Of a stretch of DNA of 64,000 bases, positions 37,578 to 61,224 are shown piece by piece. How positions within the stretch are numbered: the first letter of the stretch is position 1; the number at the start of each line of letters is the position of its first letter. The notes beneath the pieces were generated by a model that worked only from the letters and a program-made list of their open reading frames with translations, was not told where the DNA came from and did no database searches. The stretch spans positions 62,001-126,000 of the forward strand of contig BGOH01000004.1 in the NCBI GenBank assembly GCA_003569145.1, given 5' to 3'. The stretch is from Clavibacter sp. (GTDB taxonomy: Bacteria > Actinomycetota > Actinomycetes > Nanopelagicales > Nanopelagicaceae). A program made the translations under genes and the position numbers.

Positions 37578-37851
37578 AATCTTCAGCCTAACTCTTTCGT
37601 CTTTAATTTAGATAGTTGGTTTAATTGAAAGCTTGTTACAAAGAGCAGTTCTCTCATATGAGTTTTCTTATCTATAAAGTTAGTAGTAGTAACCAAACGG
37701 TTTAACTGTGGAAAAGAAACAAAAGCCCTGTTCAAGGCCGCTTTACCCTTCATTTAAACCACCTCTTCTCTGTGTAAAAACTGTGCGTAACTCTTAAAAC
37801 AAACCATTTGGAAAAATCAGGCCTTTTCAAGCCCCAACCTTTACCAACAGG

Positions 37852-37900: not shown

Positions 37901-39330
37901 TTAGGCCTTGGCCTGCAGTTTTATCCGGTTTGTTAGTTCGGAAACCTGGTTAAAAATCGACCTACGCTCAGCCATCAAGTGGCGGACTTTTCGATCTGCG
38001 TGCATAACAGTTGTGTGGTCGCGGCCGCCAAAAGTCTGACCGATTTTAGGAAGTGATAACTCAGTCATCTCTCGGCAGAGATACATAGCAATTTGGCGGG
38101 CGTTTACTAAAACCCTAGAGCGAGAAGTTCCACAGAGATCATCTAAAGTCAGACTGAAATAGGCAGCGGTCTGAGCCATAATCAAACTAGCGGTGATTTC
38201 AGGTGTTGAGTCATCTGGAATTAAATCCTTTAGAACTATCTCAGCTAAATTCATATCAACCAACTGGCGATTTAAAGAAGCAAAAGCAGTAACACGAATT
38301 AACGCTCCCTCTAACTCACGAATATTTGTAGAAATTTTCGAAGCGATGTATTCCAAAACATCATCTGGGGCATTTAATTTATCTTGCGCGGCTTTCTTTC
38401 TTAAAATAGCGATACGAGTCTCAAGCTCTGGCGGTTGAATATCAGTTATTAAACCCCACTCAAATCTAGAGCGTAGACGATCTTCCAAGTGGTTAATTGT
38501 TTTGGCGGGCGATCACTTGAGATAACAATCTGTTTATTAGCGTTATATAAAGTATTGAAAGTATGGAAGAACTCTTCTTGGGTTCTCTCTTTATTTTCTA
38601 AAAATTGAATGTCGTCAACAAGTAGAACATCAAGATCGCGGTAACGACGCTGAAAATTAGAGGATTTATCGTCGCGAATTGAGTTAATAAAGTCATTTGT
38701 AAATTCTTCAGATGAGACATAACGAACCCGAACCCCGCCATATAACTCTTTGGCATAAGCCCCAATTGCATGTAATAAATGGGTTTTTCCAAGACCTGAC
38801 TCACCATAAATAAAGAGTGGGTTATAAGCCTTCGCAGGAGCTTCAGCGACAGCAACAGCCGCGGCGTGGGCAAAGCGATTAGATGCGCCAATAACAAAAG
38901 TTTCAAAAATATATCTAGGGTTTAGCTGGGTTTGATCAGAACTTTTACTCTGCACTTCTTGGCGGCCAGTTCCTGCCCTCGGGGATTCAACTTCAGTATC
39001 TATCTCTTCAACCACAGATAGGTCGGCATCTAAAGATTCATCAACAGTAACTGCGATATTTATTTTCTCGCCCATCTTGGCAGATAGCGCATCGTTTAAT
39101 AGAACTTTTAAGCGGCTCTCTAAAACATCCTTTGCGAAAACATTAGGGGCGGCAAGAAGGAGATTTGATCCCCCATCGCTCTTTAATAAACCTAGAGGTT
39201 TAGTGAGGGTAAGAAATGCTCGGTTTTGAGGAGATTCTTTAGCAACAGAATCAACAATTCCCTTCCAAAGCTCTAAAAGGTCAGCCTCGATTTCCTTGGC
39301 TTCAAGGGCTCCAGGTTCAGCAATTGACAT
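37901..39330 (-). pseudogene. dnaA: Chromosomal replication initiator DnaA, apparent 1-nt deletion
   Basis: [33 protein letters not shown] | [25 protein letters not shown]; frame change near 38487. Confidence 0.97.
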
Positions 39331-59535: not shown

Positions 59536-59550
59536 TTAAACGTTAGAGAA

Positions 59551-59580
59551 AACGGCTCGCCACGCGCGGGCCGTTTTTTA
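59551..59580 (+). terminator. Rho-independent terminator after rplI
   Basis: AACGGCtCGC...GCGgGCCGTT followed by T-run. Confidence 0.85.
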
Positions 59581-59636
59581 TTTTCCAATTGCAAAGCAGT
59601 TTGAAATCTCAACTATTGAGAATTTGAAATAAATCT

Positions 59637-59763
59637 TTACCCACAGAGCAAGAGCTCTCTGACCTGCGTGTTTGCTGAGAAATTGGAAGTTACCCACATT
59701 TCCTCCACAAGCTCCACACAGGATTTGGGGTACTTACCCACAGATATGGAACTTTTACCCACA
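59637..59763 (+). promoter_or_regulatory. Cluster of four TTACCCACA (DnaA-box-like) motifs upstream of dnaB
   Basis: Exact TTACCCACA at 59637, 59690, 59734 and 59755. Confidence 0.6.
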
Positions 59764-59826
59764 ACCCAATACACAGCAAAAATCAATGAATTAGCCCCTG
59801 TCAGTGCTGGGTAAGAGGATACGCAC

Positions 59827-61224
59827 ATGAGTCTGGCTGAGGTCCCAAATTTTGATGAGCGCAGATCAAGCGCGCCTGAATTTGATCGCACGCCCCCACA
59901 AGATTTAGTTGCTGAACAATCAGTTCTTGGTGGAATGCTCTTATCAAAAGATGCAATTGGTGAAGTTGTTGAAGTAATTAGACATCGAGATTTTTATCGG
60001 CCAGCACATGAATTAATCTTTGAAGTCATTGTTGATCTCTATGGCAAAGGTGAACCAGCAGATGCAGTAACTGTTTCGGCTGAGCTAACAAAGCGTGGTG
60101 AGATTACAAGAGCTGGTGGCGCTCCATATCTGCACACGCTTATCTCTGCTGTTCCAACTGCAGCGAATGCTAGCTATTACGCAAAGATTGTTAGAGAGCG
60201 AGCCATCGCTAGAAGACTTGTTGAAGCGGGAACAAAGATTGTTCAATTAGGTTATGCCGCAGAGGGCGATGTTGATTCAATTGTTGATATGGCCGAGCAA
60301 GAGGTTTATCAAGTAACTGAGAGACGAGCCGGGGAAGATTTTGTTCAGTTAAGTTCTTTAATTCCAACTGCGCTTGATCAGATTGAGAAGTTGCAATCAG
60401 GAGAGCTAGCAGAGGGTATTAAAACTGGTTTTAAAGATTTAGATGCTCTAACAAATGGTTTCCATCCTGGGAATATGATTGTCATTGCAGCTCGTCCTGC
60501 AGTTGGTAAATCAACCCTTGGTCTTGATATTGCAAGACATGCATCTATTACAAATGGTGATTGCTCAGTTATCTTCTCACTTGAGATGAGCCGATCTGAA
60601 ATTACTATGCGCATGCTCTCAGCAGAGGCCAGAGTTGCTCTTAACAATATTCGCTCAGGTGCGCTTAGCGATGAAGAGTGGTCACGCCTTGCTCGAAGAA
60701 TGGGCGAAATCAATGAAGCACCGCTATTTATTGATGATTCACCTAATCTTTCAATGATGGAAATTAGAGCAAAAGCTAGAAGACTTAAACAGCGCCATGA
60801 TTTGAAATTAGTTGTTATTGACTATCTCCAGCTGATGACCTCAGGAAAGCGCGTAGAAAATCGTCAGCAAGAGGTCTCTGAGTTCTCTCGTCAACTAAAG
60901 CTTCTTGCAAAAGAGCTTAATGTTCCTGTTGTTGCCATCTCACAGCTAAATCGTTCTCCAGAGCAGCGCTCCGATAAGAAGCCACTTCTCTCTGATCTTC
61001 GTGAATCAGGATCTATCGAGCAGGATGCCGACCTTGTTATCTTGCTACACCGCGATGATCTCTATGATTCACAGAATCGCTCCGGCGAGGCAGATCTAAT
61101 TGTTGCTAAACATAGAAATGGACCAACAAAGACAATTACTGTGGCCTCGCTTCTTCACTTTGCAAAATTTGGCGATATTGCACCGAAGTATGCTGCCCCT
61201 GAAAAGTTTGTTAAAGATAACTAA
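59827..61224 (+). CDS. dnaB: Replicative DNA helicase DnaB (no intein)
   Basis: PPQDLVAEQSVLGGMLLSKDAI, ARPAVGKSTLGLDIARH, VVIDYLQLM, GSIEQDADLVILLHRD. Confidence 0.97.
   Translation: MSLAEVPNFDERRSSAPEFDRTPPQDLVAEQSVLGGMLLSKDAIGEVVEVIRHRDFYRPAHELIFEVIVDLYGKGEPADAVTVSAELTKRGEITRAGGAPYLHTLISAVPTAANASYYAKIVRERAIARRLVEAGTKIVQLGYAAEGDVDSIVDMAEQEVYQVTERRAGEDFVQLSSLIPTALDQIEKLQSGELAEGIKTGFKDLDALTNGFHPGNMIVIAARPAVGKSTLGLDIARHASITNGDCSVIFSLEMSRSEITMRMLSAEARVALNNIRSGALSDEEWSRLARRMGEINEAPLFIDDSPNLSMMEIRAKARRLKQRHDLKLVVIDYLQLMTSGKRVENRQQEVSEFSRQLKLLAKELNVPVVAISQLNRSPEQRSDKKPLLSDLRESGSIEQDADLVILLHRDDLYDSQNRSGEADLIVAKHRNGPTKTITVASLLHFAKFGDIAPKYAAPEKFVKDN

Follow-up and report, generated by a model that had tools for sequence, protein, structure and literature searches.

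What reads the four identical copies of the nonamer TTACCCACA that stand between rplI and the replicative helicase gene dnaB, and does this reading tie helicase production to the initiation of chromosome replication? The question was raised by an initial annotation of the window, the 64,000-nucleotide stretch of a Nanopelagicaceae genome analysed here (contig BGOH01000004.1), in which the repeats were taken for variant DnaA boxes or for sites of another replication regulator. The four exact copies are present where they had been located, all on the plus strand and with their starts 53, 44 and 21 bp apart (Table 1); shuffled sequences predict 0.19 copies per window and none of the shuffles reached four. 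Their clustering at dnaB is also borne out genome-wide, as the 1.08-Mb draft genome contains eight copies of TTACCCACA (five of a control pattern), of which four are those at dnaB and the remaining four are isolated and located inside or beside coding sequence. The genome is that of a freshwater actinobacterium, and the nearest record sharing its DnaB is a Candidatus Nanopelagicaceae MAG. TTACCCACA differs from the DnaA box TTATCCACA by one mismatch, T to C at position 4, and the unmodified TTATCCACA indeed occurs in four copies around dnaA/oriC, about 20 kb from the dnaB array. The placement of the array between the rplI terminator and dnaB was equally accurate, since the hairpin precedes the boxes and the last copy lies 63 bp before the dnaB start. 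The list of boxes was right for the four plus-strand copies and incomplete beyond them (e.g., TCCTCCACA, 2 bp from the second copy, has been added), and the array comprises at least five boxes phased across about 12 helical turns.

Table 1. Predicted features of the rplI-dnaB region and of the replication origin, numbered from the first letter of the window
Feature	Position	Strand	Remarks
rplI end	59535		directly upstream neighbour of dnaB
rplI intrinsic terminator hairpin	59547-59579	+	fold -21.3 kcal/mol, z -4.34
Palindrome ATCTCA-n-TGAGAAT	59606-59623		just 5' of box 1; TCTCA...TGAGA invariant in genus alignment
DnaA box 1, TTACCCACA	59637-59645	+	exact match; relatives: TTATGCACA or TTATTCACA
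TGACCTGC element	59660-59667	+	14 nt after box 1; reverse-oriented GCAGGTCA in other families
DnaA box 2, TTACCCACA	59690-59698	+	best conserved of the four; first half of double box
DnaA box 2b, TCCTCCACA	59701-59709	+	2 bp from box 2; relatives: TCATCCACA; genus alignment
Further degenerate CTCCACA-type sites	59710-59720	+	kept as CTCCACACAGG in genus alignment
DnaA box 3, TTACCCACA	59734-59742	+	exact match; genus alignment
DnaA box 4, TTACCCACA	59755-59763	+	exact match; relatives: TAATCCACA, TACTCCACA or CTGCCCACA
Candidate dnaB promoter core TGTCAG-N10-GAGGAT	59799-59820	+	directly before start codon, overlaps Shine-Dalgarno
dnaB, replicative helicase	59827-61224	+	ORF of 465 aa; 65-100% identity to actinomycete DnaB proteins
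oriC unwinding module, source genome	37681-37715	-	TTTTCCACA box 37707-37715 and DnaA-trio TACTACTACTA 37681-37691

The identity of the nonamer emerges from its distribution in related genomes. Every single-base variant of TTATCCACA was counted in three regions of the family members and compared with dinucleotide shuffles. TTACCCACA outnumbers all others upstream of dnaB (48 copies vs 0.35 expected, with 13 of TTATCCACA), in the dnaA-dnaN origin (22 vs 0.15 expected) it ranks behind TTATCCACA alone (41), and on the rpmH-dnaA side it does not occur, with TTATCCACA present 58 times, counts that come from related genomes and are therefore not independent samples. Both dnaB and the dnaA-dnaN origin show an enrichment of about 100-fold, and at position 4 of TTATCCACA only C is strongly enriched at these loci, while A and G are not. 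The relaxed DnaA-box consensus of other bacteria has T at position 4; the enrichment of C in this family suggests that this consensus is too narrow for it rather than that the site is not a box. TTACCCACA is present in 15 of the 28 oriC regions of the family. In nearly all family oriCs the DnaA-trio TACTAC is preceded, at a distance of 14-15 nt, by a box, and this trio-proximal box is TTACCCACA in eight genomes of at least three genera and TTTTCCACA, TTATCCACA or TTGTCCACA in the identical place of other genomes; the source genome has TTTTCCACA at the position that TTACCCACA holds in relatives. In the unwinding system of Bacillus subtilis and other bacteria, DnaA on such a box directs more DnaA onto the trio (PMC8287927), and on comparative grounds it is chiefly the replacement of canonical boxes by TTACCCACA at this position that argues for recognition of TTACCCACA by DnaA. 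Within the family, TTACCCACA alternates with TTATCCACA and TTATGCACA at aligned sites, and comparison gives good support to its assignment as a DnaA box. The DNA-binding domain of the DnaA encoded in the window matches those of Mycobacterium tuberculosis (3pvp) and Escherichia coli (1j1v), with the GGRDHTT signature intact. The dnaA gene itself is split by a frameshift near position 38490 (frames 37901-38488 and 38449-39330 on the minus strand), and the gene is intact in relatives (about 478 aa); the split in this essential gene probably stems from an error of assembly or base calling.

A related question is whether TTACCCACA forms a box class of its own, weak or specific for ATP-DnaA, so that dnaB would respond only at high levels of active DnaA, around initiation. 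The bias of TTACCCACA and TTATCCACA between the three loci points in this direction, as does the fact that several oriC copies of TTACCCACA occupy the trio-proximal box, the launch point of the ATP-DnaA filament. However, other genera of the family mix TTATCCACC, TTATCCCCA, TTATGCACA and TTACCCACA at dnaB, so that any weak box may do, and lineage drift at the genus level could also yield a uniform array. The distinct binding class put forward initially is thus supported by a strong locus bias, and it loses its exclusive link to dnaB, since relatives use TTACCCACA at oriC and the dnaB arrays of other genera mix box types. We regard a separate class as a real possibility that falls somewhat short of being probable; it overlaps the best explanation developed below and does not exclude it. 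With T at position 4 of the known consensus, a T4C box should bind less well and is likely of lower affinity, and the locus-specific T-to-C variant, which is new, probably serves in tuning affinity.

The array is under evident constraint. In an alignment of ten members of the genus the four boxes stand at fixed spacing, the conservation that the initial annotation had proposed as a check, and the box columns are 95% identical vs 76% for the other columns (p = 1e-7); boxes that do change usually become other DnaA-like boxes (TTATGCACA, TAATCCACA or TTGCCCACA). The 101 family genomes contain 29 pairs of TTACCCACA (none for the control), of which 28 lie upstream of dnaB and one in oriC. The mixed boxes of the other genera indicate that the uniform TTACCCACA array is specific to the genus and that the array itself is older. 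None of 35 family species has a box at dnaB that points the other way and differs from TTATCCACA by at most one mismatch. Beyond the family, the relaxed pattern YYNTCCACA occurs upstream of dnaB in 33 actinomycete families with family-weighted totals of 64.8 forward and 15.5 reverse copies (shuffle expectation 1.25 and 0.86, respectively), and at least two boxes are present in 26 of these 33 families vs 4 of 20 in other classes of the phylum. Unbiased 8-mer counting of dnaB upstream regions also ranks DnaA boxes first. By this sequence pattern, a same-direction DnaA-box array upstream of dnaB is carried by almost the whole class. The boxes are moreover spaced with a period of 10.7 bp in the family (null maximum 0.195) and of 10.9 bp when one sequence per other family is taken (R = 0.665, null maximum 0.284), the null being random box placement with descent left out of the model, and this period places them on one helical face. 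Double boxes 2-3 bp apart (spacing 11-12) are present in 46 of 48 family sequences, boxes 2 and 2b being the pair in the window, and E. coli DnaA prefers box pairs separated by 2-3 bp (PMC11317965). The interchange at oriC, the conservation and the class-wide array together uphold the view that the regulatory region of dnaB contains DnaA boxes.

The presence of the rplI terminator upstream of the array implies that dnaB needs its own promoter downstream of the hairpin, which is not listed by a simple consensus terminator scan. A sigma-70 consensus promoter scan of the region gave no match. The candidate core directly before dnaB resembles the PafBC-type motif TGTC[G/A]G-N10-TANNNT minus its first T, and a TGTCRG-N10-NANNNT sequence precedes the dnaB start in 47 of 48 family sequences. 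PafBC recognizes TGTC[G/A]G-N10-TANNNT, and dnaB of M. tuberculosis is partly PafBC-dependent (PMC8151990). A PafBC-dependent dnaB promoter was nevertheless rejected for the source organism, where the motif is degenerate (the full motif is found upstream of dnaB in 0 of 48 family sequences) and the 81%-complete genome has no match to a WYL-domain protein (PafB/PafC); on these grounds the sequence is treated as a candidate core promoter only. Given the genome without a WYL match, the PafBC-like resemblance at dnaB may be ancestral. A PafBC-type -10 element at this site would put the transcript start approximately at the ATG, i.e., produce a leaderless mRNA. In eight other families a LexA-like GAAC-N4-GTTC site is located near the dnaB start (4.8 of 33 families weighted vs 0.19 expected), which suggests SOS control of dnaB in families other than Nanopelagicaceae.

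What DnaA does at such an array is best indicated by mycobacteria. Pull-down of M. tuberculosis genomic DNA with DnaA recovered the dnaB upstream region as one of five main ones, DnaA ChIP-seq in M. smegmatis yielded the homologous five regions, and the M. tuberculosis DnaA mutant I282T binds more weakly upstream of dnaB and under-expresses this gene (PMC7738170). In the model that we favour, the four T4C boxes and at least one degenerate box form a same-orientation phased array upstream of the dnaB promoter, to which DnaA would bind cooperatively. Binding would presumably nucleate at the double box and extend into a DnaA oligomer along one face of the helix, and this oligomer would activate, rather than repress, dnaB transcription, so that helicase supply would depend on how much initiator is present or how active it is. 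Judged from the sequence comparisons, it is probable that the TTACCCACA array consists of DnaA boxes and that a phased DnaA oligomer activates dnaB, coupling helicase supply to the initiator. We infer DnaA binding to the array in the source organism by analogy. The coupling of dnaB expression to DnaA that the initial annotation had offered as one option is the most likely one in light of the conservation, the use of TTACCCACA at oriC, the class-wide array and the mycobacterial precedent (PMC7738170).

The array contains more than boxes. In many members of the family, box 1 is followed by the TGACCTGC element at a distance of 14 or 25 nt, and the palindrome TCTCA-n-TGAGA is present in 24 of 48 family sequences, with a similar palindrome in family f20. 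In other families GCAGGT[CG]A (reverse complement) follows the preceding box by 19 nt in 24 of 42 cases and by 20 nt in 4, the orientation of the element being reversed between Nanopelagicaceae (TGACCTGC) and other families (GCAGGTCA). Seventeen families have a GCAGGTCA-type element at dnaB (weighted, 12.6 of 33 vs 0.83 expected), and in roughly half of the families it stands at a constant distance from the first box; nothing relevant was found in the literature on GCAGGTCA together with DnaA. The composite YCCACA-N19-GCAGGTCA recurs at a second locus in many families, followed mostly by 3-6 same-direction boxes, beside ygjP/DUF45-like, DUF5679-like and enoyl-CoA-hydratase/echA-like genes, which are named from sequence motifs only. 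The layout CTTTCTT, CCACA, 19 nt, GCAGGTCA and then mostly 4-6 boxes of one direction is seen in twelve such sequences. The source genome has the ygjP/DUF5679 site, and the box cluster and module are absent there. From its sequence this second locus is a possible, unreported DnaA control site; a literature search for a DnaA cluster outside oriC in Streptomyces gave no helpful match. A more ambitious reading, which we put forward tentatively and consider unlikely in its entirety, is that actinomycetes possess a movable DnaA module, employed at dnaB and the second locus, in which phased boxes are combined with a GCAGGTCA partner site always 19 nt from the first box, and that Nanopelagicaceae have adjusted their dnaB copy through a T4C box class of its own, making the supply of helicase dependent on active DnaA.

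The size of the array, larger than a simple operator needs, and the recurrence of the GCAGGTCA module at the second locus in many other families would also be compatible with an array that mainly titrates or inactivates DnaA, as E. coli datA does, its location at dnaB being secondary. This is improbable, because the second locus of the source genome is without a box cluster, and control of dnaB is favoured by the class-wide link to this gene, by boxes that run up to its start codon and by its lowered expression in the DnaA mutant (PMC7738170). The conserved non-DnaA element TGACCTGC and the palindrome indicate that other proteins probably bind nearby, and it is conceivable on that basis that the nonamer itself is bound by another protein instead of DnaA; yet TTACCCACA stands in for canonical boxes next to the oriC trio, and other DnaA boxes take its place at aligned dnaB positions, which makes this reading, and with it the other replication regulator that had been considered at the outset, very improbable. 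Least credible is that the repeats, all pointing with transcription, function as a leader RNA, since the one-way boxes of the family and a region that folds slightly better than shuffles (z only -2.4 and mostly ordinary hairpins, for which an RNA fold of the array was discarded) are outweighed by the reverse boxes of other families, the boxes on both strands at oriC, a 10.7-10.9 bp period that is a property of DNA, and an Rfam search for leader RNA with nothing above the gathering score.

With DnaA-dependent activation of dnaB as the preferred reading, the comparison turns a mycobacterial DnaA peak into a class-wide, sequence-defined promoter whose architecture comprises the phasing and orientation of the boxes, their pairing and an additional element, and ties replicative helicase supply to the initiator in freshwater bacteria that are abundant and have small genomes. 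It also indicates that the DnaA-box code drifts by locus within a family, C at position 4 being accepted at dnaB and oriC and not on the dnaA promoter side, a drift that makes the purpose of weak boxes directly testable.

Among known systems, E. coli datA and DARS likewise combine a DnaA-box cluster outside oriC with a conserved site for a possible partner, whereas the dnaB array is located directly upstream of a replication gene and has no identified IHF or Fis site. The double DnaA boxes of DnaA-regulated E. coli promoters (PMC11317965) share with it the close pairing before genes (the gap between the boxes at 59690 and 59701 is 2 bp), but single pairs are described there and at least five phased boxes are present here. 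The oriC boxes of the DnaA-trio unwinding system (BUS; PMC8287927) belong to the same 9-mer family, with TTACCCACA trio-proximal in the related genomes mentioned above; the dnaB array, in contrast, has no noticed trio motif or unwinding element and is remote from oriC. The literature search for TTACCCACA in connection with DnaA gave a single paper, in which the identical 9-mer is predicted as a 'type D' DnaA box in another actinobacterium, Bifidobacterium longum (PMC2430713), at oriC rather than at dnaB. The closest counterpart is the Rv0057/dnaB region of Mycobacterium, which agrees in gene, class of position and DnaA as binder, and in two mycobacteria ranks among the five regions with the strongest DnaA signal (PMC7738170). 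It differs in that the boxes here are TTACCCACA and not canonical, rplI is directly upstream and binding is deduced from comparison. The array is, in all, a new sequence variant of the DnaA-controlled dnaB promoter already known in mycobacteria.
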